From: a virus
Direction: 5' to 3' (one strand)
Length of the DNA: 27,359 nucleotides
Virus record (IMG/VR): IMGVR_UViG_3300009702_000069
Location: 1-27,359 of that record
Position 1 is the stretch's first letter; every line of letters begins with the position of its first letter. The notes below the pieces were generated by a model, which worked only from the letters and a program-made list of their open reading frames with translations, had not been told where the DNA came from and ran no database searches. Both the position numbers and the translations under genes were made by a program. Of the stretch, positions 2,818 through 23,813 are shown in pieces.

Positions 2818-2861
2818 CCCCGCGCGGCGCCGGTCATGGGGGAACCCGACGCCGCGCGGGG
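2818..2861 (-). other. Stable GC-rich hairpin in the tail fibre leader
   Basis: Perfect 11-bp arms, CCCCGCGCGGC at 2818-2828 and GCCGCGCGGGG at 2851-2861, extend to 12 bp with the next pair and enclose about 20 bases. The hairpin lies between promoter-like site A and the fibre ATG at 2800, so it would form in the 5' leader of that transcript. No U-run follows on the minus strand, so it is not a standard intrinsic terminator. mRNA stabilisation or attenuation is possible. Confidence 0.5.
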
Positions 2862-2887
2862 CGGTGGCAACATGCTTTCGCAGGGAC

Positions 2888-2920
2888 AGAATAAGGCCGC
2901 ACGGGGTGGCGGTGCATGGC
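2888..2920 (-). promoter_or_regulatory. Repeated phage promoter element, site A (fibre)
   Basis: Minus-strand 13-mer GCCATGCACCGCC at 2920-2908, then 14 bp, then TATTCT at 2893-2888. Three other sites in the window have the same word at the same distance from a TAnnnT-type hexamer. This one lies in the gap between the lipoprotein and fibre genes and would start a transcript with a leader of roughly 80 bases. There is no good TTGACA box at the usual distance, so an activator or dedicated polymerase factor may read the 13-mer. Confidence 0.65.
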
Positions 2921-2953
2921 AAGGGCGGGGACGGGCGTGGGGTATCGGTGGGG

Positions 2954-3310
2954 TCAGCCGCGATGGAACCTGAGATTGCAGTTCTTTCGGATCGAGGCTT
3001 TCTCAACGGCTTCGAACTCACCCTTGAGGCGGCCGAGTTCCGCCGCCGTCTGCCCGTCACCGTTGAGCATGAAGATCGGGAAAAGGATCACCACGGCCGC
3101 AGCCGTCGCCACGAAATCCATCGTCGCGTTGCGGTCTTGCTGACCGGTTACCTCGGCGACGCGAGCCGAAATCCGCTTGGCTTCGTCGGCCAGTTGCGCG
3201 CACGTAAAATCGCGATACTGCAGGGGCGACACATAGACCGCCCGAATATTGCCCGATGAACTCGCGCAACCGGCGAGCACTAGACACACAATCAGCCCAA
3301 AAGCCCGCAT
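2954..3310 (-). CDS. Small lipoprotein with C-terminal conserved helical domain
   Basis: The product is 118 aa from the ATG at 3310, chosen because AAGGGAGGGG lies just upstream and because it begins a proper signal peptide: Met-Arg, a hydrophobic stretch, then lipobox LAGC with the acylated Cys at residue 16. The mature part has YVSPLQY, a Cys-containing helix, SARVAEVTGQQDRNATMD, then a hydrophobic segment (VATAAAVVILFPIFML) that could span the membrane, and a final charged helix ending near KNC. This arrangement matches small envelope lipoproteins common in alphaproteobacterial genomes and prophages. It lies next to the divergent Bro-N gene, outside the T7-like core, so it is probably cargo altering the cell envelope. 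Superinfection exclusion would be a reasonable but untested role. Ends in TGA. Confidence 0.8.
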   Translation of the reverse strand: MRAFGLIVCLVLAGCASSSGNIRAVYVSPLQYRDFTCAQLADEAKRISARVAEVTGQQDRNATMDFVATAAAVVILFPIFMLNGDGQTAAELGRLKGEFEAVEKASIRKNCNLRFHRG

Positions 3311-3382
3311 CACCACCCCTCCCTTGACAGCCGTAAGAAGAAATCTCACCATGCCAGAGCCTTCGCGTTTTGTGAAGGTCGG

Positions 3383-3524
3383 GATTAGCACCCCGTTCGC
3401 ACTGGTCTTACCTTATGGTCGGGCCACATGGGCCGAAGTCTCCCCGCGGAAACGCTAGGATTTCGGGCCGTGTCCAGTGCGCGGTTGTGCTAACCTGTGT
3501 GTGCCCGGCCACCCGATTAGCACC
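3383..3524. promoter_or_regulatory. Divergent regulatory region with repeated GRTTAGCAC words
   Basis: The roughly 250-bp gap between the lipoprotein start (3310, minus) and the Bro-N start (3562, plus) contains GATTAGCACC at 3383-3392 and again at 3515-3524, and the inverted form GTGCTAACC at 3487-3495. The last two form an inverted pair 19 bp apart. These are candidate operator half-sites for either divergent gene. No convincing -35/-10 pair was found. The rest of the gap shows nothing recognisable. Confidence 0.4.
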
Positions 3525-3561
3525 GGAACCGGGCTTCAGTTCCAGCACTGGAGTACCCGTC

Positions 3562-4437
3562 ATGACAACCCAACTGTCCGTCATCCCCCTCGCTTTCGAA
3601 GAAAATCTGGTCCGCGTCGTCAAGCGAGATGGCGAACCCTGGTTTGTTGGCATCGATGTTTGCCGATGCCTGGACCTCAAAAAACCGGAAAACACGCTTT
3701 CAAGCCTCGATGATGATGAGAGTTACACCCTCAGTAAGGGTGTAACTAATGGCCTAGACGGTCCGAACGCGCGCATTGTGATCTCTGAACCCGGCGTTTA
3801 CCGGCTGGTTTTCCGCTCCCGCAAGCCCGAAGCCGAGCGTTTCAAGCGCTGGCTGGCCCACGAGGTGATCCCCGCGATCCGCAAAAACGGTCGTTTCGGC
3901 CCTGAAACCAGCGTCTCCGAGCCGGTTCCCTCCGAAGCCGTCGCCAGCCTTGCCGTGATTTCGCTCAACCTGAAGCTGGTCAAGGAATGCCGCAACCTGT
4001 TCGGCAGCGAACGGGCACGCGGACTTTGGGCCGAGCTCGGTCTGCCCGAGGTGCCGCTGGCCCCGCCGACCGCCTATGATGAGGCGGTGCAGTGTCTGAC
4101 CCATTTGCTCACCGCACCGTCGCATGACGGCAACGCCAGCATTCGCGACACCCTGGAGCTGGCTTTCGAGGACGACCTGAATGCCAGCGTCCACATCCAG
4201 GCCAGCGGCCTCCGCGTCGTCGCCACGCCGTCGGAAGGTTTCGTCGTCGCCAACCACCACCCCCGGTTGGCGGAAATCTTCGCCGGCACGCCCTGGACCA
4301 GGGGCCGCCACGCCCGCGTCCTCCGCCGGCTTGCCGGCAGCGGCATCTCGGGCTCGGTCCGGGTCGATGGCGTCACCCGCCGCGGCACCCTGCTGGCGCC
4401 CGACTGGCTCGACGAGGCGAAGCTGTTCGCCGGCTAG
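3562..4437 (+). CDS. Bro-N domain protein (antirepressor-like), plus strand
   Basis: A 291-aa product starting at the ATG at 3562, with GGAG at 3551-3554. Residues about 8-115 form a Bro-N domain: N-terminal beta strands (VRVVKRDGEPWFVGIDVCRC), LDDDES, ISEPGVYRLVFRSRKPEAERFKRWLAHEVIPAIRKNG. Bro-N is a DNA-binding domain of phage antirepressors and baculovirus BRO proteins. A middle helical part links to a C-terminal block (about 230-290: ANHHPRL, GTPWTRGRHARVLRRLAG, RGTLLAPDWLDE) that looks like a small winged-helix-type DNA-binding domain; this is an inference from pattern only. The gene is inserted against the direction of the late operon, between the largest internal virion gene and the lipoprotein, so it probably has its own control. 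It carries a perfect inverted repeat (3721-3747). Ends in TAG. Confidence 0.85.
   Translation: MTTQLSVIPLAFEENLVRVVKRDGEPWFVGIDVCRCLDLKKPENTLSSLDDDESYTLSKGVTNGLDGPNARIVISEPGVYRLVFRSRKPEAERFKRWLAHEVIPAIRKNGRFGPETSVSEPVPSEAVASLAVISLNLKLVKECRNLFGSERARGLWAELGLPEVPLAPPTAYDEAVQCLTHLLTAPSHDGNASIRDTLELAFEDDLNASVHIQASGLRVVATPSEGFVVANHHPRLAEIFAGTPWTRGRHARVLRRLAGSGISGSVRVDGVTRRGTLLAPDWLDEAKLFAG
3721..3747. repeat. Perfect 11-bp-arm inverted repeat inside the Bro-N gene
   Basis: Arms AGTTACACCCT (3721-3731) and AGGGTGTAACT (3737-3747) with five bases (CAGTA) between. It lies in the coding sequence just after LDDDE, where it encodes SYTLSKGVT. The arms contain GTTACACC/GGTGTAAC, the same word that is clustered in the 23.5-23.75 kb array. 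Confidence 0.7.
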
Positions 4438-4466
4438 CGATATGTGAAGGCTTCGCCGGCCCGCAT

Positions 4467-7400
4467 TCACTTCCTGCGTTTGCGCTTGTGGCTTTTCGGC
4501 TTGACGCCACTCAGTCTGCGGACATCGCCGAGGATTTTGTCGATGTCGGCATCGGCGCCGTCTCGCAGAATGCGCTCACGGATCGCCGGCCAGGCCTGTT
4601 GCAGCGTTTTGCCATCGACGACCCCGGCCTTGCTGATCAGCGCCTTGTAGGCGCTGGCAATAGCGGGCGCCGCCTCCTCGAGTAGCTTCAATTCCTGGCC
4701 CGGGTCCATCGGTTTCTTTTGCTTCCAGCCCCGCGCCCGGATCGCAATGAGGGCGTTGCGGGCTTCGCCCATGGCCATCCGCGAGAGCAGGTCGTCAGCG
4801 ACCCGCTTGGCCGACGGCGACACCGTCTCATAGCCGTCAATCAGGGCTTTTCGCACTTTTGAAATGACCCGCGAGACGACGCCGGCCCGCGCGAACGGAT
4901 GCAGGCCGTTTGCTTTTTTCGCAAAATGCGTTTTCAGGATCGCATAGGCCCGCTCGTCCAAGCTCATTTTCGCCAGATACTGCTCGGCGCCGCTATCGTC
5001 GCCGTCGTCAACGAGCCGCTTATAGCTCCGGGCTTTTCGGGTCATCAGTCCACCGCGCCGGCCGACCTGGTGCCAGAATTCCTTTTGCGACGTCGAACCG
5101 CGCGAAATATCGCGGATGAACCGATGGGTAAAAACCGTGTCGTCGAAACCGAGGTCGGGCCGGTTCGCGTTCAGGGTCTGGTTGGTGTGTTTCAGAAACT
5201 CCCGACCCAGCGTGCCGCCGACCGTGCGAAAGACAAAGTCCACGTTTTGCGGCGAGACGCCGAGGCGCTTGCCGATCGAGCGGGCGAATTCCGAGGTGTA
5301 GGTGTTGAACTGCAGTGCCGGCTCCAACGCTTTCATGTGCTCGGGCACCACGGGCCGGTCGAACCGCCGGTCCTTGTTGAAGCCGAGGCCGAGCACAAGA
5401 TCGGCGACCGGCGCATTGAACGGCGGCAACATCAGATCGACCAGGCCGTCACGCAAACGCTGCCAGGCCAGCGGATCGTCTTTGGCAATCGCGTCGTAGC
5501 TGCGCTCAAAGACGTTCGAAAGGAACGCCGGCTCAAACGGTTTTGGGATGGCGGTCCACTCACCGAACAGCTTGACCATCCAGTGGGTCGCCTTCAGATA
5601 GTCGCTGATCTCCTCATATTCCGGATCGTCGCGATAAAGCGCCGTCAGCGTGAGCCCGAACAGACCGAGCGCCGTCGCCTTGGCCCAAATCCGGGACGAC
5701 GCCGGCAGGGCAGCCTGCTCCTGCTTTGTGAGCACCTGCCCCGTCAGAGCCTTGATGGCGGGCACAATGGCCGCCCGCGAAAACTTCTCGACCCCCTGAA
5801 GCGCCGCGTTCGTGAACGTCGCCGTCCGCCGGATGTGCAGCATCCGTGCGCCTTTGCGGGAAAAGTCAATGAAATCGCGTGCGACGTAGGCCGCCTCGAT
5901 CAACGCCTCGCGCTCGGTTAATCCGCGCGAGCGGTGCATCTTGTACGACTGCTCGAACAGGCCCTGGCGGGTCGCGGTCTCGCTCAGTTCCGTCGCCGAG
6001 AGCAGCTTTTTAAAGAAGGTCGGCAACGACGTCACGCCCTGCACCACGTAGCCCTTTCGGCGCATCTGGCGGATGTCGGCATCGACGCGGACCTTCGAGA
6101 CCGCCGAGACGTTAACGCCGCCGTGAATGCCGCCGAAGGAGTTATAAAGCCGCGAGATCTCGCTGCGCGTGATTTCTGACTTGAAGCCGCGGGCCGCGTC
6201 GACGAACGGGCGATAGCCCTCGTTCAGGACCCAGGCCGCCATCTGGTCACGCACCAGGTTCGCGAACATGAACGACGGCGAGGCGGTGACACCGGTTCTG
6301 AGGATCGTGCTCGGTCTCGAGACCGTGGCGATCCACAGGCTCGACACATCCCGGTTCATGCCCGTCAGGGCGCCGTACATCTCGCGCCCGAAACGGCCGT
6401 CGGCGAGACGAAGCGCCTGGCGCTCGCCGTCGCGCCAGACATAGATCACGTTCTCGCCCAAGCTACCCTTGGCACCGGCGCCATAAAACACCCGCTGTTC
6501 GCCACCGCCGTCGACCGCTTCATCGGCCAGCGTATTGAGCGTCGCCGCGTCCTGACCGTCGAGATGGCCGGCACGGACATCGCCGGCCACCGCATGATCG
6601 AGCCCGATGCTCACCTGCTCGTCCGGGCTCAGCCGTTCGACAATCCGCCCACTGCCAAAGCCGGCCCGGACGGAAAGGTCCTCCAACGCCTTGAAAACGT
6701 CGTTCCGGGCAATGATGGCGCGGGTTTGATAGCTGTCCATGATCATCGCCTGGATCGGGTTGACGATGTCGCGGTCCGAGCCCTTGAACTTAAACAACAC
6801 CCCCTTGGCGCCGCTGTCGCTACCGCTCCGGGTCAGCGCCTGCACCTGCTTGTCGCTCATGTCGCGCAGTACGGGGACATAGAACGGCCGCGTAAGACCG
6901 GCCTCGTAGGCGTCCTTTGTGATCAGACCGGCCTCGTATTTCAGCCGCCACTGCTGGCGCCCATAAGCGTGCACCTTCATCGCCGCGGCCCGAAAGTTCG
7001 GCCGCGCCGCGTCCATCTCGTCGACGAAGCGGAGCAGCGATCCGGCCGGCTCGGCGTCCGGCGGCCCCGGCAGGTCGCCGTCGAAAAACCGCCGCCACTC
7101 GACAAGCAGCCGGAGCGAAGCCGTGTAGGCGCCGAAATCATCGATCATCTGATCCGACCAGCGCCCGGAGCCAAACGCCTCTTCGAGGGCCGCGAACATG
7201 CTCGGCCCCTCGGGGTCGCGGCCATGATAGGGCGTGACGCCGTTGGCCAAATCCATCTGCCCGGCGGAATGGGCTCCCCGCGTCAGCCGGGCCAGCTTAT
7301 AGGCGTCGTTCGCCGCCTTCAGGTCGATAAGCTCGCCGGTGTTCTCCTGATAAATCTTCGCCAGCGCCCGCACCGCCCTGTTGATCGGGTTCAGGTCGTC

Positions 7401-9767: not shown

Positions 9768-9774
9768 GGCGCCC

Positions 9775-12328: not shown

Positions 12329-13083
12329 CAGGGCCGGCCTGGCGCGAAGCGCAGATCATTCGGTCCGCGCGAGCCACCCGACGTCCGCGACCGCACCGTC
12401 GGACCGCCGCGCCGGCTGACGTCGGAAATGAAATCAAGGGTTTTTATGGCGGCCGAGAAAAACCCGCTCTGGCTCGCCGCATTACCGCGGGCCAGGGCGA
12501 CAAACCCGGATGGATCACTCGGGATCAGATCTGGGAACGCGAGCGAACCCTCGAGCCGGGCCGGCAGGCCGGAGAGGTTCGCATCACGCCGGACCCTGGC
12601 GATATCCTCGTTGGTTCGCGATGCGATGTCTGCGGCCGCGTGGGCCGGCGTGCCGAAGCTGCTATCGACACCACCGGCGGCGAACGCAACCTGGGTCTGA
12701 CCGATGGTTTCTGCCATCCGCTGTAGCAGATTGGCGACGGTTTCTTCCGAATTGAGCTTGGCCACGTTGGCCGCCAGGTCGCGCCCGGCCTGGCCGAAGT
12801 CGAGCCCCGCCTGGTCGACCACGGCATTGCTCTGGGCCGCCAGCTCGCGGGTCCGCCGGGTGCTGGCGGCGGCCTCGGCCTCGAAGCGAGACTGCCTCTT
12901 GGCACTCGTACCGCCAGCGATCGAACTCAATGCACTCAACGCCGTTGAGCCACCCTGCAGGGCGGTTTCGACAGAAAGCCCCTCGGCACCGATCCCGAGT
13001 GTCGTCCCGATGCTCGAAAGCCCGGTGCCGACGCTTCCAATGCCGCTGGCGATAGCCGTCCCGAGCCCTGCAATAATCTCCAT
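12328..13083 (-). CDS. Internal virion protein (T7 gp14-like)
   Basis: A 251-aa protein. The first 60 residues are Gly/Ser/Ala/Ile-rich and hydrophobic, as in T7 gp14-type proteins that enter the outer membrane during DNA ejection. The middle is a helical section (residues about 60-130) followed by QVAFAAGGVDSSFGTPAHAA, a phrase typical of this internal virion family (an aa-G-v-D-x-x-x-GTP pattern). The C-terminus is basic and flexible. TGATG overlaps join it to tail tubular B upstream and to the 691-aa protein downstream. The order gp12-gp14-gp15-gp16 supports the call. Confidence 0.8.
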   Translation of the reverse strand: MEIIAGLGTAIASGIGSVGTGLSSIGTTLGIGAEGLSVETALQGGSTALSALSSIAGGTSAKRQSRFEAEAAASTRRTRELAAQSNAVVDQAGLDFGQAGRDLAANVAKLNSEETVANLLQRMAETIGQTQVAFAAGGVDSSFGTPAHAAADIASRTNEDIARVRRDANLSGLPARLEGSLAFPDLIPSDPSGFVALARGNAASQSGFFSAAIKTLDFISDVSRRGGPTVRSRTSGGSRGPNDLRFAPGRP

Positions 13084-14978
13084 CAGTTGACCTCCAACAC
13101 CAGCGACATCACCTCGAGCGGTCCGGGCGTTGGCTGGTCGATCGTCACCAGGCCATTATCGCTCGAGCCAAGCAGGCGCGGCACCACGACCTCCTCGGTC
13201 AGCAGTTTTGACATCATCGGCGTATCGAGAGCGACCGCGCCGAACTGATCGACCGTGATCTTCCGGCTGTCGGCATCGTTCGCCGTGACCCGAAAGTTGC
13301 CGGTCCGATAGACTGAGGCCCGCACCGTATGTATCCGTTTCTTTCGCCGCAGAACCGTGTCGTCCTGAAGTTTTTCCAGCATCGGCATGGTCGTCACGCT
13401 GGGCGCGAAATCAATCCCGACATCGACGACCGTCGCCGCCGTCGCCAGCGTGATCTGGCCACTCGCGACCGTGAACGGTCCGGCCGGCGTGCCATCGGCC
13501 ATGGCCCAGACCGTCTTGCCCTCGAGATCGGTCAGACCGCCGATCACCGTCGTCGGTGAAGCAAACGTCTGGCGCACCGTGGCGTCGCCATAAACCCCCT
13601 CGACGATCTCCTCGAGATAGACGTCCGTCTGTCCTGATACGGTGCGCTCGACGGCCGCCCAAATGCGCCGCGCGCCATCGACCAGAAAATCCCGCCATAG
13701 GCCATCGCCGTGGCTGAGCTTCGACCAACCCGCGACATCCTGATCGCGCAACATCGTCATCACCGCGCCCGACCCGTCGGCGTTGACCACCAACAGGAGT
13801 GAACCCTCAGAAGTTTCGGCGGCCGGTCGATGGGTCAGACTGATCGCGTCGGAAATCAGATGCGAGGCGAGCAGTGACGCGGCGCCGCCGGCATAATCGG
13901 CCTGGGCGTCGTCCCACAACATATCGCGGATCACGGCGCCACCCGACTGGATATAGAGCGTTCCGCCCTCGATGCCGACGACCGGTGCACCCGGCTTCGA
14001 TCCAAACGTCGTCGTGAGGACGAACACCACCGGCTGGGTCGCGTCGATGACCCGCGTCGTGACGTAGAATTCGCCGAAATCCGTCAGGCATTGGAGATGC
14101 CGGCCACTGTGCAGCTTCAGGACATTGACCACCTCGTCGGCATCCAGGGCCAGCGTCAGGGCCTTGGCCGACGCCCCGATCTGGTCCGTGTCAAAATTGA
14201 AATAGTCCGCCAGCTTCGAGGCAACGACCACGTGCGGAAACAGATAGAGACCCCCCATCCAGAGGCGATCCTGAAACCAGGTCGCGCATCGCGGCCAGCC
14301 TTGTTTCGTGCCGAATATGGGCGCACCGGACGAGACGTCGCGACCCTGAACGACGCTGGTCGTCGTCACCGTCACGCCGTCGTTGCCGACAACATCGGCC
14401 CGGATCAACGGCCAGAACCGGGCCGCGTTGGCACCACCGACAAAATCCACGGTGAAATCGAGATTTGTCGCATCGGCCAGATCGACCGTGACGGCAATGC
14501 CGGCCGCGATATTCGGCAAACCCTCGAGGGCGCCGACGAGCGCCGTCGCCATGGCCCCGGCGTCGCTCGATTTGGTCACCGGCACCGTTTCCAGAAATTC
14601 GCACGTCAGGATGATCGCCTCACCGTCGGCGATCCCGGCAACCTTGATCTGCTGGCGCTCGTCCTGGCCACCGGAATAGACCGGTGACGTCGACTGGGTG
14701 TCCACGTTGGTGAATGTCGGTAGCTGCGACTGCCACTCGTCGTCGGCGCCCTGGCGCTGGCACATCCAGATGACTTCGTGGTGAAAGAGGAGAAGCGTGT
14801 CGTGGCTCTGAGCGTTGTCGATCTCGCGCAACTGGCTGGATCGGTATGGCAGCGCGATTGCCGACTTCCACACCCCGTCGCGATAGACATCGGCATTCCG
14901 GTCCGTAGCGAAAATCTGATAGGTTTCAGAATCAGAGAACGCAACGGCAGCCTGCGGACCGCAGAACAGATCGTCTTT
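13083..14978 (-). CDS. Tail tubular protein B, main part (T7 gp12-like), separated from its start by a frame change
   Basis: About 630 residues forming most of the tail nozzle protein. Recognisable landmarks are AVAFSDSETYQIFATDRN, ADVYRDGV and the family hallmark GWPRCATWFQDRLWMGG, which is typical of podovirus tail tubular B / stabilisation proteins; the C-terminus is beta-rich (RRKKRIHTVRASVYRT). The open frame extends up to 15164, but upstream of about 14978 its translation is nonsense-like (Cys/Trp/Arg/Asp-rich), while the true N-terminus is in the other frame. Inserting one base in the A-run at 14979-14976 would join the two parts as WVEKDDLFCG. No credible start codon exists just after the junction. 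Ends in TGA, sharing one base with the next ATG. Confidence 0.82.
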   Translation of the reverse strand, partial: KDDLFCGPQAAVAFSDSETYQIFATDRNADVYRDGVWKSAIALPYRSSQLREIDNAQSHDTLLLFHHEVIWMCQRQGADDEWQSQLPTFTNVDTQSTSPVYSGGQDERQQIKVAGIADGEAIILTCEFLETVPVTKSSDAGAMATALVGALEGLPNIAAGIAVTVDLADATNLDFTVDFVGGANAARFWPLIRADVVGNDGVTVTTTSVVQGRDVSSGAPIFGTKQGWPRCATWFQDRLWMGGLYLFPHVVVASKLADYFNFDTDQIGASAKALTLALDADEVVNVLKLHSGRHLQCLTDFGEFYVTTRVIDATQPVVFVLTTTFGSKPGAPVVGIEGGTLYIQSGGAVIRDMLWDDAQADYAGGAASLLASHLISDAISLTHRPAAETSEGSLLLVVNADGSGAVMTMLRDQDVAGWSKLSHGDGLWRDFLVDGARRIWAAVERTVSGQTDVYLEEIVEGVYGDATVRQTFASPTTVIGGLTDLEGKTVWAMADGTPAGPFTVASGQITLATAATVVDVGIDFAPSVTTMPMLEKLQDDTVLRRKKRIHTVRASVYRTGNFRVTANDADSRKITVDQFGAVALDTPMMSKLLTEEVVVPRLLGSSDNGLVTIDQPTPGPLEVMSLVLEVN

Positions 14979-15580
14979 TCGACCCACAACCGCACCGTCG
15001 TCAGGGTCGTGGCACCCGTCGCCACGCCGCCCACGACCACCATCCGCCAATAGCGCGCCGACTGGGCGCCTCCCGGCGCCGTCGCCATCCGCCTGGTGCG
15101 GAGCGACGTCCGGACATTGACCGGGCCGCCAAAATCCGACCAAGTGACACCATCGCTCGACCACTGCACCTTGACAGCATCATCGGCACCCGTCGTCGCC
15201 ACACTGACATTTTCGAGATCGACAGCCGCAATGGTTTGCGCGGCAGACAAATCGATTTGAAACACCACGAACGGATCGCCGCTGGTGATCGCGGTGGTAA
15301 AATTTGTCGCCGCCTGCTGGTCGAGCAGATTGGCGATCGTGCCGCCATTCGGCGCCGTGATCATCGACGCCGTCAGCGGCACCGCCCGGAGCTGGCGCCG
15401 CAGTCTGCCCTTGGTGACACCGCCGCCGCGCCGGGCGACGCCGCCCTGCGGCCGGACAATGACGTTCAAGCCACCACTCAGGCCCTGGTAGTATTGCTCG
15501 AGATCCCCGCGATCGACAAGCCGAGGATCGAGCACGCCCTTGGTAAAGTTGTTCTGCTGGCGCCCGGCCCCCCGCGTCAT
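14606..15580 (-). CDS. Tail tubular protein B, N-terminal part with inserted discoidin-like domain
   Basis: Residues 1-55 (NNFTKGVLDPRLVDRGDLEQ, GLNVIVRPQGGVARRGGG) are the classic start of T7 gp12-type tail proteins. The usual continuation is interrupted at about 75-200 by a beta-sandwich segment (AATNFTTA, VVFQIDLSAAQTIAAVDL, VKVQWSSDGVTWSDF, ARYWRMVVVGG, VRLWVEK) with the pattern of a F5/8-type-C/discoidin domain. After residue 202 (position 14975) this frame turns into an Arg/Ser-rich nonsense translation that stops at 14606, while the genuine sequence continues in the -1 frame. So only 15580-14975 is meaningful here. The start is the ATG at 15580, one base after the TAG of tail tubular A. 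Confidence 0.78.
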   Translation of the reverse strand: MTRGAGRQQNNFTKGVLDPRLVDRGDLEQYYQGLSGGLNVIVRPQGGVARRGGGVTKGRLRRQLRAVPLTASMITAPNGGTIANLLDQQAATNFTTAITSGDPFVVFQIDLSAAQTIAAVDLENVSVATTGADDAVKVQWSSDGVTWSDFGGPVNVRTSLRTRRMATAPGGAQSARYWRMVVVGGVATGATTLTTVRLWVEKTICSAVRRLPLRSLILKPIRFSLRTGMPMSIATGCGSRQSRCHTDPASCARSTTLRATTRFSSFTTKSSGCASARAPTTSGSRSYRHSPTWTPSRRHRSIPVARTSASRSRLPGSPTVRRSS

Positions 15581-15581
15581 C

Positions 15582-16456: not shown

Positions 16457-16486
16457 TTTCTAGTCCTCATTCCAGAAATGCAATGG

Positions 16487-16511
16487 ACCGGCGCGGTCAG
16501 GCCGCGCCGGT
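16487..16511 (-). terminator. Terminator-like hairpin after the major capsid gene
   Basis: Perfect 10-bp arms, ACCGGCGCGG (16487-16496) and CCGCGCCGGT (16502-16511), with a five-base loop. It lies in the 72-bp gap between the capsid stop and the 89-aa gene. On the minus strand the stem is followed by CCATTGCATTTC, not a strong U-run, so partial termination or a 3' mRNA stabiliser is more likely than a full stop. Confidence 0.5.
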
Positions 16512-16528
16512 TATACTGACAGCCCGGA

Positions 16529-17065
16529 TCAGGCGATCGCGACACTGTTGTCGGCAATGCACTTCACCAAACCTTCGGCCTGGCGAATTTTGCTCGCGAT
16601 CCCCATCCAGTTGTTTGCGAGCCACGCGGTCTTGGCGTTTTCCCAGGTAATCCGCGACTGGACTTTCTTGTTATCGACCGAGAGCACGGCCGGCTTGTGC
16701 CACATATAGAATTCGAGACCGTTGGCACCGTTCGCGGTGAAAATGCCCTCCGGGCCGAGGAACCAATGCACGCCGTTCCAGAACTTCGACACCGAGCCCT
16801 GCATGAAGCTCAGATTATTGTCGCCAACCCAGTCCGCGTTATTGAACTGGGTGAACGTCATCATCTGGTTCCACATAGTCGACGGCAGCATGCAATACAC
16901 CTGACCGTCCCACGGGACGTCCTGTTGCTGCATGATCCGGATGGCTCCGAGCGCCAGGCCCAGGTCCCAGACGGCGGTCGCCGAACCGACGGTGTTGGTG
17001 CTGGTGTAGGTGCCGGCGGCCATGGCCGCGTGAATGACCTCGTCATGCTTGCGACCGAGTGCCAT
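16529..17065 (-). CDS. Major capsid protein, C-terminal part after an in-frame TAG
   Basis: Encodes the larger part of the head shell protein. MALGRKHDEVIHAAM, ALGAIRIMQQQDVPWDG, GQVYCMLPSTMWNQMM, NADWVG, FWNGVHWFLGPEG, EFYMWHKPAVL and SRITWENAKTAWLANN are the landmarks of a podovirus capsid family with a presumed HK97 fold. The 178-aa product as drawn uses the ATG at 17065, but this is unlikely to be a true start: no ribosome site precedes it, and the same frame continues upstream through four codons and one TAG (17080-17078) into the N-terminal part. With the TAG read as an amino acid the whole capsid protein would be 286 aa, without any gap. Ends in TGA. Confidence 0.85.
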   Translation of the reverse strand: MALGRKHDEVIHAAMAAGTYTSTNTVGSATAVWDLGLALGAIRIMQQQDVPWDGQVYCMLPSTMWNQMMTFTQFNNADWVGDNNLSFMQGSVSKFWNGVHWFLGPEGIFTANGANGLEFYMWHKPAVLSVDNKKVQSRITWENAKTAWLANNWMGIASKIRQAEGLVKCIADNSVAIA

Positions 17066-17077
17066 GCCGGCCGTCCT

Positions 17078-17389
17078 CTAGGCTTCACCCACCGCCTGGA
17101 CACTCATTTTCTCGAGGTCGTCCTCGCGGATATATTCCGCCGCCTGATAGTTGACGAAGTCGACCTTGACCCGGGTCCGCCCGGCGTTCATCGGCACCAG
17201 GTCCTGGATCGTCCCGGTCGGCGGCATCTGCACCGCCGTGCCGGTTTTCGCCAGCATGAAATAGGCACTCTTGGCGTCGGTCTCGTCGGTCGACGAAACC
17301 GTGTCGCGCAACCGATAGCCCTTGTCCTGATAAACGTGGGTCACACCGTCGCGATATTTTTCGGTAAACCATTGTGAAGCATCAGCCAT
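17078..17389 (-). CDS. Major capsid protein, N-terminal part ending at an in-frame TAG
   Basis: Encodes 103 residues beginning MADASQWFTEKYRDGVTHVY, with YFMLAKTGTAVQMPPTG, DLVPMNAGRTRVKVDFVNYQ and AAEYIREDDLEKMSVQ, the N-terminal arm and first strands of a phage capsid protein. The ATG at 17389 has a strong GAGAGGAA site and a roughly 115-base leader from promoter-like site B. The TAG at 17080-17078 interrupts the gene between VGEA and RTAGMALGRK; the frame is otherwise continuous and no residues appear to be missing. A C-to-T change in a CAG (Gln) codon would explain it. A free 103-aa fragment could not build a head, so either the element is defective or the codon is suppressed. Confidence 0.85.
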   Translation of the reverse strand: MADASQWFTEKYRDGVTHVYQDKGYRLRDTVSSTDETDAKSAYFMLAKTGTAVQMPPTGTIQDLVPMNAGRTRVKVDFVNYQAAEYIREDDLEKMSVQAVGEA

Positions 17390-17511
17390 TTTCCGTTCCT
17401 CTCAAACCGTGCTGAAATGAGCTACGGGCCGAGTGCCACGGTGCCGGGCGGGCTTGCCGATGTCGGTAGGTGCCGCCGGCCGGACGCGGGTCTGTCCCTT
17501 CGCGTGCTGCG

Positions 17512-17552
17512 AATATAGGGCCGGCATGGGTGGCGGTGCATGGCGCACCGCC
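17512..17552 (-). promoter_or_regulatory. Repeated phage promoter element, site B (capsid)
   Basis: Minus-strand GCCATGCACCGCC at 17544-17532, 14 bp, then TATATT at 17517-17512, the best -10 match of the four copies. Uniquely, this copy also lies in an inverted repeat: GGCGGTGC (17532-17539) and GCACCGCC (17545-17552) flank ATGGC. It sits in the 170-bp gap between scaffold and capsid genes, the usual place for the strongest late promoter. The rest of that gap is leader sequence with no other feature. Confidence 0.7.
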
Positions 17553-17561
17553 ACCGATACG

Positions 17562-18383: not shown

Positions 18384-18743
18384 CTATTTGCTCCTCTTGC
18401 TCCTTTTCGGCGCCGCCTGGCCTTCGGCAATCGCCGCCTCGATCATCCGCACGATTTGATTTTGGCCGTGCCGCATGGTGACGTAGGGTGCCATTTGCTC
18501 GAAAGTGATCGGCTCCTGGTGACCGACCTGGATCGGAACCATGTCGCGACCCACGGTTTCGCTTCGGAGCCAGTCGAGCACAACACGGCCATCATCGGTC
18601 GCAAACAGCCTGGCCACGGCGAGCGCGATGTCGCGGCGCTTCGAGGCCATCGCCCGGGTGGCCGCGTCCATTTTCGGTCCCACGCCCTCGAGACCATCCC
18701 AGCCGACGCTCGTCAGTTCCTGCAAAGCCGTCATGGGGTCCAT
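18384..18743 (-). CDS. Bbp19-like small phage protein
   Basis: A 119-aa protein between portal and scaffold. The central block ALAVARLFATDDGRVVLDWL, and MRHGQNQIVRMIEAAIAEG near the end, match the pattern of the Bbp19-like family of podovirus proteins (F-x-T-x-x-G-x-x-V-L-x-x-L, then x-x-G-Q-x-x-x-V-x-x-I). Function is unknown; the position suggests head assembly. The C-terminus is basic (KRSKRSK). Its ATG overlaps the portal TGA by one base. It ends in TAG, immediately followed in frame by the scaffold ATG, with the scaffold ribosome site inside its last codons, so ordinary termination and re-initiation is the natural reading. Confidence 0.75.
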   Translation of the reverse strand: MDPMTALQELTSVGWDGLEGVGPKMDAATRAMASKRRDIALAVARLFATDDGRVVLDWLRSETVGRDMVPIQVGHQEPITFEQMAPYVTMRHGQNQIVRMIEAAIAEGQAAPKRSKRSK

Positions 18744-20365
18744 CAGTTTACCGCCGCTCCGTTCTGTGCCGGCGCCGGCGCATTACCGCCGCCGGCACCA
18801 CTGGCCTGATCGATCATCGTCTGCGCCTTGCCGCTGGCGAGTTGGTCAATGATCGTCTCTAGAATCTTGTTTTCCTTGTCGTCCCGGATGAACCGTTCCT
18901 CGACACCGAGTAAACGCCCGAGCTCCGGCAACAGGGTCTCGAAGCGGGCCACCATCGCGGCCTGTTCCGGGCCGGAGATTTGCAGCATGATCGACACCCA
19001 CTCGACCATTTTCTGGGCCATGTCGGCCTGCTGTCCGCTGGCAATCGGACTGACCACCTTCATGGCGGTAACGAGCTGATCGATCTTGATCTTTGTGGAC
19101 AGCATCCCCTTGCGCTCAAGCACATCGATCACGCGCTTGACGAGCGGCACGATGATCTCGAGCGTCAGCCGGCCGTAAACGCCGCCGAGGTCCTGGGCCA
19201 GGCGCTTCATCCGCTCGACGATTTCTGTCGGTGAGCGCACGGCGCCCGCCTCCGGCGGCAGAGTGTCGTCGAACGTTGCCTGTTTGACCGCCTCCCTTTC
19301 GTCGTCGATGACGACCGAGGAGATGTCGAAAGACCCCGGCAGATCGAGCTTGGCCAGCGACGGCCCGAGCCCACCGCCGGTTGAGCTCACCGCAATCATG
19401 GCGTTCGGCACAAAATTCGCCGTGTCCGGGTTGAACACGCTATCATCGCGATAAATCCAAATCCCCATGATGGCAATCGCGGCGGCGCGGAGCACCATCT
19501 CGCGGGCCTTGTTCAGCGTCTTGATGTTCGGCATGGCGATCATGCCCGGCCCGCGGCCATAGGGCTCACCGGGGACAACGTAAAAACGCGGCGTCAGCCA
19601 GGGCGTCACCCGGAAATTCTCGCTCCAGATCGCCGGATCGTCGGCAGGGGCATCTTCCCAAAACACCGTCAGGACCCAAATCTTCAGCTTCGGATCATAG
19701 ATCGTCGCCTGCACGATGGTCACATCGCTCGACTCATTCTGGCGCATCTTTTCTCGCAGCTTGTCGCCGAACGCGCCATCCGGCCACATATCGCGCAGTT
19801 CGTTCACATCCCACTTTTTGCGCCAGTAGACACCACGCACCCGGTTGAAGCCGTCGGTCTCGAGCGCGAGCTCATGATAAGGCACCGAGACGCACTCGAT
19901 GACATCGTCATCGTCGCCCTCCCGGATCAGCATCGCACCGGTACCCGCGAAAAGAACGAGATACATCTCGTGACTGGCGACGTGAAACGTCGAGGTCCTG
20001 AGAGCCGCGTGAACAACTTTCGAGATGTCCTGCAGCGCTCGGGTGAATTCCGCCTTGTCGACACCGAGGCGCTCTGCGGCCGGCCCTGGCTCGAGCTGGA
20101 AGAAATCGGCAAAAAGCGGCGTCAGGTAGTCCTGCATCCGGCCGGCGAACCGGACGGCCGCCTTCGGAGCCGTGCCGTCGAAAATGCGATCGGTCCGCTT
20201 TGCGGCCTTGCTTTCGTATTCGCCGGCATTGCGATAGGGGATTGCGTACCGGTAGACTTCATCGGCGAGATAATCCCAGCGCCTGCGGTACTGAAAGGCC
20301 TTCGCGGATTTCTTGCGCAGCCGCTTGATCGAGCTCTGCTCGGGGTCTGTTTTCGCCGCTTCCAT
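18743..20365 (-). CDS. Portal / head-to-tail connector protein (T7 gp8-like)
   Basis: A 540-aa product from the ATG at 20365 (MEAAKTDPEQ), chosen because it lies just after the upstream TGA; a GTG at 20404 is an alternative start. The portal forms the dodecameric ring at the packaging vertex. Residues about 20-50 (RRRWDYLADEVYRYAIPYRN) and on through RIFDGTAPKAAVRFAGRMQD, EMYLVLFAGTGAMLI, VRGVYWRKKWDV, GEPYGRGPGM and PNIKTLNKAREMVLRAA follow the Head-tail connector (gp8) family closely. The C-terminal third has the helical stem and an acidic crown (PEQAAMVARFETLLPELGRL), then a Gln/Ala-rich tail. It is of normal family length and intact. Confidence 0.93.
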   Translation of the reverse strand: MEAAKTDPEQSSIKRLRKKSAKAFQYRRRWDYLADEVYRYAIPYRNAGEYESKAAKRTDRIFDGTAPKAAVRFAGRMQDYLTPLFADFFQLEPGPAAERLGVDKAEFTRALQDISKVVHAALRTSTFHVASHEMYLVLFAGTGAMLIREGDDDDVIECVSVPYHELALETDGFNRVRGVYWRKKWDVNELRDMWPDGAFGDKLREKMRQNESSDVTIVQATIYDPKLKIWVLTVFWEDAPADDPAIWSENFRVTPWLTPRFYVVPGEPYGRGPGMIAMPNIKTLNKAREMVLRAAAIAIMGIWIYRDDSVFNPDTANFVPNAMIAVSSTGGGLGPSLAKLDLPGSFDISSVVIDDEREAVKQATFDDTLPPEAGAVRSPTEIVERMKRLAQDLGGVYGRLTLEIIVPLVKRVIDVLERKGMLSTKIKIDQLVTAMKVVSPIASGQQADMAQKMVEWVSIMLQISGPEQAAMVARFETLLPELGRLLGVEERFIRDDKENKILETIIDQLASGKAQTMIDQASGAGGGNAPAPAQNGAAVN

Positions 20366-20369
20366 GATG

Positions 20370-20750
20370 TCAGCCGCCGAGCTTCTTGGCGAGCCCGCGG
20401 GCACCCGTCTCCACGAATGTCAGCAATCCGAGACGACCACGCCCGGGACGTCGTGCGGCCCGTGAGCGCCGCTCCAGATCGGCCGCTTCCTTGCGCCGCT
20501 TATCGGCTTCGGCCTTGATGCGAGCCGTTTCTGCCCGTGCCGTGGCTTCGTTGCGCCGGAGCCTGGCCGTCTCTGCCTGCGCACGCGCCGCCTGGGCCCG
20601 GCGCAATCTCTCCTGCTCGGCCCGGAACGACGCCTCGGCGCCCTTGCGCACCGCCCGCGCCGTCGTGCCTTCGCTCAGTCCGACGCTGCTCGTGACATTC
20701 CGAAATGTTTTGCGCACCGATCGGCCGACGCTTCTGACTATCTTCGACAT
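20370..20750 (-). CDS. Basic coiled-coil protein upstream of portal
   Basis: A 126-aa product from the ATG at 20750 (MSKIVRSVGRS), preceded by GGGAG. A basic N-terminus is followed by a long Ala/Glu/Arg heptad-like helix (about residues 45-100: EQERLRRAQAARAQAETARL, RAETARIKAEADKRRKEAAD), clearly a coiled coil, then a short C-terminal segment. Similar Ala/Arg-rich coiled-coil proteins occur between terminase and portal in related podoviruses; function unknown. The first part overlaps the 3' end of the GNAT-like frame by about 250 bp; its composition shows this is the coding frame in the shared stretch. Ends in TGA five bases before the portal start. Confidence 0.75.
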   Translation of the reverse strand: MSKIVRSVGRSVRKTFRNVTSSVGLSEGTTARAVRKGAEASFRAEQERLRRAQAARAQAETARLRRNEATARAETARIKAEADKRRKEAADLERRSRAARRPGRGRLGLLTFVETGARGLAKKLGG

Positions 20751-21162
20751 CCCGCATCTCCCAAATCTGCATGACCCCATCGGTGCCGATGTGTGTCATC
20801 CCGAGCAGCGCGACCATCCGGCCGCCGGCCTCGTTGCCCACAACCACACGGGCCGTCACCGGGCCGGCAAAACGCACCACCTTCCCGGCCAGAACCCCTC
20901 GAACGTGCCGGATCACACCGAGCATGTGACGCGCGGCCCCATCGCCGAAAAGGGACCAAAGCTCGGCCCCATCGCCGACACTTGCTATACCAGCGACGCA
21001 CAAGGCGGTGCATGGCGGCACGTCGTAAGCCCACACGGGCCCCGCCCGCATCTGCCGGCGAAAGGCCGCGAGCTTGTCCGGGTCCGGCCCCAGGCCACCG
21101 TTCAGGTCACCAAGCACGCTGATCAGATCGGAATAGCGCGCCGGCCGCGCCGTGACGGTCAT
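20500..21162 (-). CDS. GNAT-like / T7 gp13-type protein with overrunning C-terminus
   Basis: The reading frame is 220 aa, but only residues about 1-140 look genuine. The start TARPARYSDLISVL, the central ELWSLFGDGAARHMLGVIRH, and VVVGNEAGGRMVALLGMTHI follow the acetyltransferase-fold pattern seen in phage gp13-type and GNAT-like proteins. Catalytic ability is uncertain: no clear Q/R-x-x-G-x-G/A acetyl-CoA loop. After QIWEM the translation (Arg/Gly/His-rich) is the shadow of the coiled-coil gene in another frame, giving a 250-bp overlap. Either the overlap is real or a one-base change removed a nearby stop; the third frame has a TAG just past the next ATG. The start ATG overlaps the large terminase TGA. 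Confidence 0.65.
   Translation of the reverse strand: MTVTARPARYSDLISVLGDLNGGLGPDPDKLAAFRRQMRAGPVWAYDVPPCTALCVAGIASVGDGAELWSLFGDGAARHMLGVIRHVRGVLAGKVVRFAGPVTARVVVGNEAGGRMVALLGMTHIGTDGVMQIWEMRDVEDSQKRRPIGAQNISECHEQRRTERRHDGAGGAQGRRGVVPGRAGEIAPGPGGACAGRDGQAPAQRSHGTGRNGSHQGRSR
20984..21016 (-). promoter_or_regulatory. Repeated phage promoter element, site D (inside GNAT-like gene)
   Basis: Minus-strand GCCATGCACCGCC at 21016-21004, 14 bp, then TATAGC at 20989-20984. This is the only copy within coding sequence; it would drive the coiled-coil, portal, Bbp19-like and scaffold genes. The 13-mer is identical to sites A and B, but the bases between it and the hexamer differ from theirs, so the match is not explained by wider duplication. 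Confidence 0.55.
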
Positions 21163-22679
21163 GACTCGAACACGTTGAAATCTGATTTGCCGATTGTCGT
21201 GCCACGGCTGCCCCGCCGTGACCTGATCTCCCGGCTGCCGGAGATCACGCCATAGCGACCCTTCTCGCCCAGGAGTAGATACTGCAAGGCGTCATGCGGG
21301 TTGCTCCAATCATTCTTTTCCGGCTTGTCGGAATAGCGCTCACCGCCACCGACCAGGCTCCGCTTGTAACGGTAATGGGAGGCGAAGCCCTTGCGCAGCA
21401 TCGGCGTTGCGCCCCGGCTCAGGATGAACGCCGGCGTCTGGGAATCGATCATGAACGTCAGTTCGTCCTTGACCGCCGTCAGGCGCGGCTCGATCTCGTT
21501 GGTTTCCGTCGGCAGAATAGGAAAGCCGAGCTCCCGGGCGACGATTTCCGCCCACGCGAATTCACCCGCCTCCTTGTCGGCGCCGGTGAACCCGGCCGGA
21601 TCACACCAACCCATTTGGATCGCAGCATTCGGTGCGACATCGCCTAACACCTGCTTGAACTGCGCGGCGAACCGCCGGGCATTCATCCGGCCGGGCACGA
21701 CCTCGGCGAGGATGCGCCACTGGCCGAGCGATGTGCGCTGGGCGATGACACCTGCCGGTCGGGTCAATCCCTGGTCGAAGCCGACCTTCACCGGTAAATT
21801 ATCGCTTGCCTTCAGCGGCGCGGCCGACAAATGCAGCGCATCGGAATATTCCGGGTAGACCGGCTCGCCTTCTTCCGAGGGGCCGTATTCACAGTCGATG
21901 AACCGGGTGATCCAGCGCGGCTTCTTGGCGTTGAGCCGGATCAGGCGATCATAGTATCCGTCCGGCAAATTCTGCACGTTTTCGGCCCGACCGGTCCTGG
22001 CGCCGGGCTGGCGATAGAGCGTGTAGCCCTCGACGCGCTGTTCGTCGAAGGCTTTGACAAACCAGTGATCGATATCCGGCGCGTTCAGATCGCCGACCAC
22101 ATAGGGCCGATAACTGTCACCCGGTCGCAGTTGCTTTTTCGGCGGATAGCGCCCGATCCGCCCGATCGCATTGGTCAACACCGTTTCGGGCATCTGGTCC
22201 ATTTCGTAGAGCCAGAACGCCGTCGGCTCGAAACCGCGCATAAACGGCTGGACCGCTTGTTCGCCGATGGCGGCGAAGATTACCTCGCATTCCACCTGCA
22301 CCACGACCCCACCGCGGATCACCTTGAACCCCACCTTGTGAAACGCCTGGCGCCCGCCACCACCCTTCAGTTCGGCCTCGAAAAAATTGTCCGTCGTCCG
22401 CGGCAGCCACTCGAAATAAGTCGGGAACAAGTTGCGCTCGATCTGGCCGTAGGTGTTGCCGATGATCGCCAGGCGATAACGGATTTTTCCATCCCGGCAG
22501 ATCGGCATCTGCCCAGCGTTGAGCAGCATGTCGTAAACGCACGAGACTGACTTGCCACCGCCGACCGGACCCATTATCGCCCGGACCTCGCTGGTCCGGT
22601 CCAGCAGGAACGCCTCGGCGACCGGACCCGCCGGCTTGAACGTCCGGAAATTCTCGACATCGTTGCCGCCGCCGTTCAT
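21159..22679 (-). CDS. Terminase large subunit
   Basis: A 506-aa product from the ATG at 22679 (MNGGGNDVEN), with GAGGTG about six bases upstream. It is the ATP-driven DNA packaging motor and nuclease. The ATPase domain begins with VRAIMGPVGGGKSVSCVYDM (Walker A, GPVGGGKS, about residue 40); a Walker-B-like acidic pair is in FWLYEMDQMPETV. The nuclease half has VGFDQGLTRPAGVI (RNase-H-like catalytic Asp) and MGWCDPAGF, with a later acidic stretch (NDWSNPHDALQYLLLG). It ends in TGA overlapping the next ATG. The gene is intact, unlike the small subunit. Confidence 0.92.
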   Translation of the reverse strand: MNGGGNDVENFRTFKPAGPVAEAFLLDRTSEVRAIMGPVGGGKSVSCVYDMLLNAGQMPICRDGKIRYRLAIIGNTYGQIERNLFPTYFEWLPRTTDNFFEAELKGGGGRQAFHKVGFKVIRGGVVVQVECEVIFAAIGEQAVQPFMRGFEPTAFWLYEMDQMPETVLTNAIGRIGRYPPKKQLRPGDSYRPYVVGDLNAPDIDHWFVKAFDEQRVEGYTLYRQPGARTGRAENVQNLPDGYYDRLIRLNAKKPRWITRFIDCEYGPSEEGEPVYPEYSDALHLSAAPLKASDNLPVKVGFDQGLTRPAGVIAQRTSLGQWRILAEVVPGRMNARRFAAQFKQVLGDVAPNAAIQMGWCDPAGFTGADKEAGEFAWAEIVARELGFPILPTETNEIEPRLTAVKDELTFMIDSQTPAFILSRGATPMLRKGFASHYRYKRSLVGGGERYSDKPEKNDWSNPHDALQYLLLGEKGRYGVISGSREIRSRRGSRGTTIGKSDFNVFES

Positions 22680-22918
22680 GGCCGCACCTCGGCAATCACG
22701 CGCGCGCGGCACCCCCCGACCCCCCGATGTGTCAACAAAATTTTCCGCACCCTGCCCTCGCAGGGACTTTTCAAAAAGTGAAAACGGTGCGGGACACCCA
22801 CCTTAAAAATAATCCCCCCCCGACTTCTGGGGGGCCTCTTTTTTTGCCGGCGCGGGCGCTGGGCCACTGATTTCCAATCAGCGAGATCGAAATCAATTTT
22901 TGTAGAAGTATCAGTCAC
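22676..22918 (-). CDS. Possible small ORF bridging the two terminase genes
   Basis: An 80-aa frame starting at a GTG that overlaps the small-terminase TGA (GTGA) and ending in a TGA that overlaps the large-terminase ATG (ATGA), so it exactly fills the gap between them. That tiling is the main argument for a real gene. Against it, the frame crosses a strong hairpin with poly-C/poly-T runs and a second structured region, and the product (basic, PRRQKKRPPRSRGG) has no recognisable domain. It could equally be a structured non-coding spacer. Confidence 0.3.
   Translation of the reverse strand: MTDTSTKIDFDLADWKSVAQRPRRQKKRPPRSRGGIIFKVGVPHRFHFLKSPCEGRVRKILLTHRGVGGCRARVIAEVRP
22745..22792 (-). other. 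Predicted three-way-junction RNA/DNA structure upstream of large terminase
   Basis: Outer arms CCGCAC (22745-22750) and GTGCGG (22787-22792) enclose two hairpins: CCTGC/GCAGG (22751-22755 with 22760-22764) and ACTTTT/AAAAGT (22766-22771 with 22774-22779). All pairs are perfect Watson-Crick. It lies about 65 bp before the terminase start. It could be a leader RNA structure or part of a packaging site; no known RNA family is recognised. Confidence 0.45.
22805..22846. terminator. Bidirectional intrinsic-terminator-like hairpin between the terminase genes
   Basis: A C8 run at 22814-22821, loop GACTTCT, and G6 at 22829-22834 form a strong stem. On the plus strand CCTC and seven T follow (22839-22845); on the minus strand ATTATTTTT follows. 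Both directions therefore satisfy the stem-plus-U-run rule. On the minus strand it would reduce transcription from small to large terminase. Confidence 0.65.
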
Positions 22919-23250
22919 TTGGCGTCGTCGTCCGACTGCGCGAGATCCGACAAATCGCGATCGCCATCGCTAACCTCTTGAATTTCCTCGATTTCTGCGA
23001 GCGGCAGTCCGAGCCCAATCGGCGCGTCGGATGACGCGCCCAGGTTGATCTGGATGATGCCCCCGCCCGAGCCCTCGGCCTCGACCGCCACCGGCTGCTT
23101 TTGCTCGACGTACGGCAGCGCCGCCACGGCCGCCGAGACCCGCAGCTTGACGACGTCGATCAGGCTCTCCGCGCCCAGCTCGCGCGCCAGCTCGCGCGTG
23201 TCGCGATTAGCCAGCTCGACTAGCACCTCGAGCGGCGATCGCAGCCCGCG
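22915..23250 (-). CDS. Terminase small subunit, C-terminal part after an in-frame TAG
   Basis: The frame directly after the TAG at 23253-23251 continues with RGLRSPLEVLVELANRDTRE, then a helical stretch (VVKLRVSAAVAALPYVEQKQ, PVAVEAEG) and an acidic tail ending in TGA. The segment SPLEVLVEL...ALPYVEQKQPVAVE is the typical core of terminase-small-subunit-like proteins in these phages, which recognise packaging DNA. A GTG at 23226 could start a 103-aa fragment, but no ribosome site is visible, and the family core begins before it. The region should therefore be one gene with the N-terminal part. Confidence 0.75.
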   Translation of the reverse strand, partial: RGLRSPLEVLVELANRDTRELARELGAESLIDVVKLRVSAAVAALPYVEQKQPVAVEAEGSGGGIIQINLGASSDAPIGLGLPLAEIEEIQEVSDGDRDLSDLAQSDDDAK

Positions 23251-23460
23251 CTACCGGAGCAGCCAGTCGACCATCTCCTTAGTGCGCCGGTTCCGAGCGC
23301 CCGCCGGCCGGCCAGGCCCGCGCGCTGCACGCCCACCCGCCCCAGTCGGCGCGTCATCGTCGCCCGGCAGCATCGACAGCTGCTCGCCGCCCGCCGCCGG
23401 CGCCTCACCAACCCCCACAGTCTCAATCGCCGCCGCGATGCCCGCCTTTTCCCCGATCAC
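23251..23460 (-). CDS. Terminase small subunit, N-terminal part ending at an in-frame TAG
   Basis: Encodes 69 residues from the ATG at 23460 (weak AGGGG ten bases upstream). A flexible Ala/Gly-rich start leads into RGPGRPAGARNRRTKEMVDW, a basic GPGRPxGxxN-type motif with a helix (MVDWLLR) that normally runs on into the SPLEVL core of this family. The TAG at 23253-23251 stops it between LLR and RGLRSPLEVL; without it the gene would be 181 codons. CAG to TAG or TCG to TAG would each be single changes. The gene lies first in the late operon, about 315 bp after promoter-like site C. Confidence 0.75.
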   Translation of the reverse strand: MIGEKAGIAAAIETVGVGEAPAAGGEQLSMLPGDDDAPTGAGGRAARGPGRPAGARNRRTKEMVDWLLR

Positions 23461-23522
23461 CGCTAATAAACCCCTGATATTTAATTAGAATTGCTACAAC
23501 TGTCCCACTGACTGGAACAAGC

Positions 23523-23748
23523 GTTACAGCGCTGTTACACCAAAAAAGACCGACATAACAAACACTTACCATACGTTTGTAACGTGTAGCGATGTAACAC
23601 ACGCTCACGTGTGCGCGCGCGTGAGCGTGCCTATGCGAGATCATTGAGTGGTACAGCGTTACAGTGGGATTATCGCGCGTTAAGTTATTGAAACAACAAC
23701 AAAAATCCAATGTAACACCAGTGTAACACTCACGCCGCCGGCGTTACA
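23523..23748. repeat. Cluster of eight TGTAAC/GTTACA words (candidate origin or operator array)
   Basis: GTTACA occurs at 23523, 23534, 23658 and 23743; its complement TGTAAC at 23578, 23593, 23711 and 23722. Two pairs (23523/23534 and 23711/23722) have starts exactly 11 bp apart, one helical turn, and point in opposite directions, flanking the array. The region from 23461 to about 23800 contains no credible gene and is visibly richer in A/T than its surroundings. It lies between the replication block and the packaging genes, in the leader of promoter-like site C. Confidence 0.65.
23600..23629. repeat. Perfect 10-bp inverted repeat in the centre of the array
   Basis: CACGCTCACG (23600-23609) and CGTGAGCGTG (23620-23629) flank TGTGCGCGCG, an alternating purine-pyrimidine run. 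It lies between the two oppositely oriented sets of TGTAAC words, consistent with a protein-binding or extrusion element of an origin. Confidence 0.6.
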
Positions 23749-23755
23749 AACCCCC

Positions 23756-23771
23756 ACCTCAAGACCTCAAG
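23756..23771. repeat. Tandem 8-bp repeat (ACCTCAAG twice)
   Basis: Two adjacent exact copies, 23756-23763 and 23764-23771, immediately downstream (minus strand) of the -10 of promoter-like site C, so at the expected start of that transcript. They may be an operator. Confidence 0.4.
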
Positions 23772-23780
23772 AATTTTCTG

Positions 23781-23813
23781 ATCTTAAAATGGGTCGGGGT
23801 AGCGGTGCATGGC
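23781..23813 (-). promoter_or_regulatory. Repeated phage promoter element, site C (packaging operon)
   Basis: Minus-strand GCCATGCACCGCT at 23813-23801 (one mismatch to the other copies), 14 bp, then TAAGAT at 23786-23781. It begins 10 bp after the ribbon-helix-helix gene's stop and points at the small terminase. The transcript would cross the TGTAAC array before reaching the first gene. Confidence 0.6.

Follow-up and report, generated by a model that had tools for sequence, protein, structure and literature searches.

Genes of the window and the repeated word

The window analyzed here is the whole 27,359-base virus record IMGVR_UViG_3300009702_000069, which belongs to a podovirus and carries almost every gene on the minus strand. 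The genes follow one another as primase-like gene, small terminase candidate (terS), large terminase (terL), a GNAT-like open reading frame (ORF), portal, scaffold, capsid, tail proteins, a 1,775-aa protein and tail fibre. Within the whole window, the 12-mer GCCATGCACCGC was found in four exact copies, all on the minus strand and none on the plus strand, and the base 3' of the copies is C, C, C and T. An original prediction had proposed a four-copy late-promoter element ending in C or T, and both the copies and their final bases are reproduced here.

Each copy is followed, after a gap of 15 bases, by a hexamer resembling the sigma-70 -10 box. Promoter 1 consists of the word at 2909-2920 and TATTCT at 2888-2893, ahead of the tail fibre gene (371-2800, minus; PHROG tail proteins, CBM_5_12). 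Promoter 2 (word 17533-17544, TATATT 17512-17517) is located in the gap between scaffold and the major capsid gene (16529-17389, minus), which is assigned by phrog_3437 on both halves, PF19821 and its sequence. Promoter 3 (word 21005-21016, TATAGC 20984-20989) stands ahead of the portal gene (18743-20404, minus; PF12236 Head-tail_con, E=8.7e-77). Promoter 4 (word 23802-23813, TAAGAT 23781-23786) precedes the terS candidate (22915-23460, minus), which can be aligned to the gene preceding terL in related phages; terL itself occupies 21159-22712 (minus), and the primase-like gene upstream of promoter 4 lies at 24676-26502 (minus; phrog_21086 and phrog_35358 DNA primase). The three intergenic copies, those ahead of terS, capsid and fibre, are identical across GCCATGCACCGCYACCC. 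The predicted setting holds for these three, but the fourth needs correction, as it is placed inside the 220-aa GNAT-like ORF (20500-21162, minus). This ORF is 29% identical to the same-position gene of the related locus L018 and has no Pfam match, so that GNAT-like denotes a family likeness and not a profile match. The predicted fixed distance is present at all four sites; three of the hexamers fit TANNNT, and TATAGC departs from the strict form by lacking the final T. No fifth site was detected in the window when up to three mismatches were allowed and TA was demanded at the correct position.

The number of copies is by itself unremarkable in GC-rich sequence, since a four-copy 12-mer on one strand is present in 11-18% of genomes simulated with Markov models of order 3 to 5. 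It is the combination with the hexamer that stands out: a 12-mer with four copies on a single strand, all having TA at the same offset of no more than 30 bases, occurs once in the real window and in none of 1,200 simulated genomes. This result bears on the idea that the repeat arose by chance or coding, either from base composition or from small ORFs opening ATG CAC CGC (MHR...). Such an origin might be suspected because 12-mers with four copies are frequent in sequence of this kind, and because ATGCACCGC is found in all four copies with the TA in its frame. Besides the simulations, it is contradicted by words in the relatives that lack ATG, by an ORF at site 4 that ends after 8 codons, and by the absence of a visible Shine-Dalgarno sequence. 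The small-ORF idea was rejected as it is not kept in relatives, and a chance or coding origin as a whole is hardly credible.

The word spans about -39 to -28, and its 3' half falls in the -35 register. The original statement that no TTGACA box accompanies the sites is right in that a sigma-70 promoter scan reported none of the four as a consensus promoter; what it missed is that the 3' half of the word is itself in the -35 register, so the word replaces the -35 box and is not upstream of a missing one. A plain host sigma-70 promoter, with a TTGACA-like -35 and a spacer of about 17, is not what is found here. Rather, as in activator-dependent promoters, every window site combines a sigma-70-type -10 box at one fixed offset with a conserved non-consensus word, here at 15 bp, and has no consensus -35 at 16-18 bp. 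The four sites very probably start transcription.

One geometry with different words in related phages

A terL search revealed 13 syntenic IMG/VR contigs with 56-63% identity to the window protein. Strong terL matches were also obtained from 22 of 397 sampled Hyphomicrobiales genomes, representing prophages of Hyphomicrobium and other Hyphomicrobiales. An alignment used as query found no further terL relatives in IMG/VR, and the portal as a single-sequence query retrieved no relatives.

Elements of the same plan stand in these relatives ahead of terS, portal, capsid and fibre, and in some of them ahead of the lysis-side gene, at 15 bases from TANNNT. Sites homologous to promoter 4 with lineage-specific words are found in G004, G006, G011, G012 and HYP, and sites homologous to promoter 1 upstream of the fibre gene in G004, G006, G009 and HYP; a site corresponding to promoter 2 precedes the capsid gene in relatives. 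The words agree within a lineage and differ between lineages, with AAAGTTGACA, GCGGTTAACA, AAAGTCTATC, CGGGTTTCCA and CGGTTGAC[CG] in the relatives and CATGCACCGC in the window. G004 possesses AGTTGAC[AG] at five sites and HYP CCTGCGGGTTTCCA at four (terS, portal, fibre and lysis), all of them with N15. In G006, AAAGTCTA[TC]C occurs at four sites, with N15 at three and N16 at terS. GGTTAACA is found in G011 and G009 at terS (N16, AATGAT), portal, capsid, and fibre or lysis, G011 having three N15 sites and one with N16. Three sites with AGTTGMCA/GGTTGACG were found in G012. The word CGGTTGAC[CG] belongs to G404 and its kin, with at least four sites in G404; several phages of this group have GATNNT or CATGAT instead of TANNNT at the fibre site, where the distance is still 15. 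In several relatives a -35-like hexamer (TTGACA, TTAACA) occupies the register held by the word in the window. The spacer comparison across relatives suggested by the original prediction thus shows 15 bp to be kept while the word itself differs by lineage.

Over 14 phages, the core words were counted 54 times on the late strand versus 3 times on the other strand. The words were chosen from these very sites, so the evidence resides in the strand and position bias and not in the count. The words of the window, HYP, G004, G011 and G009 are also recovered by de novo clustering that ignores position; for distant prophages it gave only noise. The scan of relatives for the window word has a divided outcome: the architecture is found, but CATGCACCGC is private to the window lineage. 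In IMG/VR, the full 17-mer has eight single matches, all unrelated. The 12-mer followed by N15 and TANNNT has at least 118 single matches there, and among 80 loci listed, homologous genes appear only as one weak fibre match; these matches are due to chance.

The N15 rule was derived from the IMG/VR contigs and tested on 20 newly fetched prophages outside the hypothesis set, by counting TTGAC[AG]-N(s)-TANNNT for s = 10 to 24 on each strand. The late strand has 12 matches at s = 15, five of which belong to the single prophage G404, and 0-3 at other spacings (one at s = 17). On the other strand of the same prophages, 7 matches have s = 17 and a single one has s = 15. These strand-specific peaks set the late elements apart, as a class, from the ordinary promoters of the same DNA. 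They also argue against ordinary host promoters used by a housekeeping or alternative sigma factor with no phage activator, in which case the relatives with TTGACA would just have sigma-70 promoters whose spacer is short. A near-consensus TTGAC hexamer is present at the site in most lineages, and alphaproteobacterial promoters accept a range of spacings, both of which would agree with host promoters. But the spacing is 15 at nearly all sites, the words of the window, G006 and HYP are unlike TTGACA, and the extended words are kept within and not between lineages, which makes this explanation quite improbable.

As with promoter 3, the portal site of the relatives is inside the GNAT gene; in the relatives it falls in the gene's 5' part, where the codons specify K-L-T-V-P...Y. 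Likeness at this site is partly a result of protein conservation. In G011 the codons read CGG TTA ACA, with leucine as TTA, which fits the G011 lineage word, and in G006 they read AAG TCT ACC (K-S-T), with serine, which fits the word of G006. These two cases display the pattern expected if selection acted on the DNA word. By eye, promoter 3 of the window is about 25 codons deeper into the ORF than the sites of the relatives. Promoter 3 had also been considered as a coding coincidence, which was dropped once the relatives showed the site within the GNAT gene.

A copy within an ORF would also suit a non-promoter role, in which the words serve packaging, replication or some other process of DNA binding and lie between gene blocks by coincidence; sites of this kind typically have repeated words. 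This is very unlikely in view of the fixed offset to a -10-like box, the single orientation, the location ahead of late blocks and the same plan in several lineages. Moreover, the terS leader contains a separate repeat cluster of a kind that would suit packaging or replication. In this leader (23523-23748) TGTAAC occurs eight times in both orientations; the whole window contains 13 copies versus 2.9 expected, and 0 of 100 shuffles reach 13. Clustered leader words are also observed in relatives, namely CCGTTCC (G006, G011 and HYP), GGTGAAC (G004) and GGTACAC (G404). Possibly these clusters are TerS/pac sites or replication iterons, again lineage-dependent.

A DnaA-domain-IV-like candidate reader

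Taken together, the best reading takes the four elements as the late promoters of a single regulon, where a phage activator, likeliest a DnaA-domain-IV-like/GafY-like protein, would act on the -35-region word in a lineage-private code, and we give it a probability of roughly 0.6. This agrees with the late-promoter family read by a phage factor that was originally predicted, as the relatives have the same four to five positions and the same 15-bp spacing, several of them with a -35-like hexamer. The occurrence of an own word in each lineage suggests that each phage carries a matched switch protein.

A candidate for such a protein is encoded near the head of the relatives' early operon. It has 84-113 residues and a helix-turn-helix, with longer open frames in some prophages, and is present in 22 of 25 relatives among those whose early region is covered, the match in G409 being weak. 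In the PDB, a profile made from four of the phage proteins matches domain IV of E. coli DnaA (E=4.6e-5); the profile finds host DnaA as well. The AlphaFold model of the phage protein (pLDDT 95) is composed of the DNA-binding domain only, with no AAA+ part. Structural comparison by VIA-align placed six DnaA entries at Z 11-14 (DnaA domain IV 13.8), and the next, unrelated row at 6.0. With Foldseek, every one of the ten best matches is DnaA or contains DnaA, at probability 1.00 and with E-values of 0.006 and above, none below 0.001.

The domain resembles that of GafY and GafA, and it is in the relatives only that it was found. A second match of the profile in a Hyphomicrobium genome is a GafY-type gene between mucR and DUF6456-sufE. 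In L170, a Hyphomicrobium metagenome-assembled genome, the mucR, DnaA-like, DUF6456 and sufE genes of a gene transfer agent control locus are found at 1404-3754, alongside the prophage. This arrangement is the Hyphomicrobiales gafA locus (PMC9638019). The host GafY-type protein and the phage proteins have a common tail of the type IEDRRDDPxFDRxLDxLE. In Caulobacter, GafY binds RpoD domains 3-4 and assists RNA polymerase where the -35 is degenerate (PMC11150451).

Recognition helices and words pair across the relatives. SHEA (G004 and G012) goes with AAAGTTGACA, SHTA (HYP) with CGGGTTTCCA, SAPG (G011) with GCGGTTAACA, DPMA (G006) with AAAGTCTATC, and SKQA (G191, G359, G235, G272 and G404) with CGGTTGAC[CG]. 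The whole DnaA-like protein of G012 is 45% identical to that of G011 versus 40% to that of G004, yet its helix and its word are common with G004. The co-variation of helix and word may be regarded as a lead, not as proof.

The promoter plan comprises a sigma-70 -10 box (TANNNT-like) and a word of 10-14 bp exactly 15 bp upstream over the -35 region, and word and putative reader vary between lineages on this fixed geometry, in what would be a private promoter code. The DnaA-like protein is the likeliest candidate for the activator that would be needed at the four sites. It would be made in early expression and then bind the word at about -39 to -28, contact sigma-70 and dock on the host holoenzyme, which would thereby open promoters whose -35 sigma region 4 cannot read at 15 bp. 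The terS, portal, capsid and fibre units would be switched on jointly, late in infection.

Several observations weigh against this activator model. No word was found in several more distant prophages. Caulobacter GafY binds far upstream, at about -123 to -113, together with IHF (PMC11150451), and the phage word is over -35. GafA and GafY also act with a GafZ/DUF6456 partner or domain (PF20057), which was found in none of seven virus records of the phage relatives, possibly incomplete ones, with a profile that gave control matches in Caulobacter. G004 and G012 are nearest to each other in terL and portal too; the helix-word match mostly follows phage kinship and is weak evidence for that reason. 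The window is without a reader gene because the contig ends before the early region, and the window phage presumably carries a DnaA-like gene beyond 27,359. In G135 promoters are present, but no DnaA-like gene in the stretch covered; its left part resembles host chromosome, so G135 may be a truncated prophage.

The DnaA-like early protein could instead act in replication. The sites would then still be activated late promoters, with the word read by another phage factor, such as an unrecognised sigma-like or sigma-appropriating protein. DnaA-like phage proteins elsewhere are regarded as replication proteins, and the place of the gene in the early operon near primase genes is also apt for that role. 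We consider this division of roles unlikely, because the modelled protein is the DNA-binding domain alone, the words are nearly confined to late promoters, and no sigma-70 region 4 protein was detected above the cut-off in seven virus records. The T7-type polymerase profile (PF00940) had no match in any of seven records, and no control genome gave a match either.

Neighbouring features, known systems and significance

Some genes among the late units have features of their own. In-frame TAG codons, one in each gene, are found in terS (23251) and the major capsid gene (17078), and the homology goes on past each. TAG recoding was rejected: the fibre, tail A and 119-aa genes all end in TAG, where it is a normal stop, and a tRNA search found none. 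The two codons may be due to sequencing error or decay. The tail B gene is in two frames (about 14900-15164), with the N-terminal part in the frame of 15580 and the remainder in that of 13083-15164. Its counterpart in relatives is a single continuous gene, and the split is likely an indel. A Bro-N domain gene (PF02498; 3415-4437) is located on the opposite strand among the late genes and has kin in G006 and G012 elsewhere in the gene order. Between primase and terS, the region 23823-24084 encodes a short ribbon-helix-helix-like protein with a weak BrnA antitoxin match. Ahead of it stands the inverted repeat TTAGCATGC...GCATGCTAA; the gene faces a pair of small genes on the plus strand, and the region was not seen in the relatives compared. 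The window phage is probably temperate, since integrase-like genes and prophages occur among its relatives.

The closest named phage by TerL is the Burkholderia phage BcepC6B (Ryyoungvirus; 36% identity), which has the same structural gene order. It possesses neither a DnaA-like gene by the A4 profile nor a series of TTGACR/TTAACA-N15-TANNNT sites.

Promoters in which an activator word stands where the -35 would be are already known from phages. In the middle promoters of T4, a phage-specific word, the MotA box, replaces the -35 at a set spacing from the sigma-70 -10 box; a phage activator recognizes this box, with sigma appropriation by AsiA. Our elements differ in sequence and spacing, in a candidate reader of the DnaA fold, and in a word that changes among related phages. 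Late-gene activators are also known in temperate phages, such as P2 Ogr and Mu C, together with the lambda CII sites. Here too the sites are common to several promoters without a good -35 and served by one activator, but they differ in position and consist of dyads or direct repeats. The variant features of our elements are the fixed 15-bp spacing, the word change between lineages and the DnaA-domain-IV-like candidate reader. A literature search covering only part of the literature found no description of such a promoter class and no study of late regulation in these temperate phages. The GafY/GafA systems are the nearest to the proposal, with a DnaA-like DNA-binding domain in alphaproteobacteria of the same host group, phage-type structural genes activated from sigma-70 promoters with a poor -35, and a single activator dedicated to a regulon of several promoters (PMC11150451, PMC9638019, PMC6363796).

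At least six sequence-distinct promoter words that share one geometry are now recognized, and five of these have a candidate reader of about 100 residues. How sigma-70 could be enabled by a small activator to work with a 15-bp promoter spacer is thereby open to a direct test, and the word-reader pairs would be useful as genetic parts if they are orthogonal. For the family, comparison of the lineages leaves an even chance that Hyphomicrobiales podoviruses keep one promoter architecture while word and activator co-diversify into orthogonal codes, and that GafY would be a domesticated member of the same activator class, which suggests a possible origin of this gene transfer agent activator.

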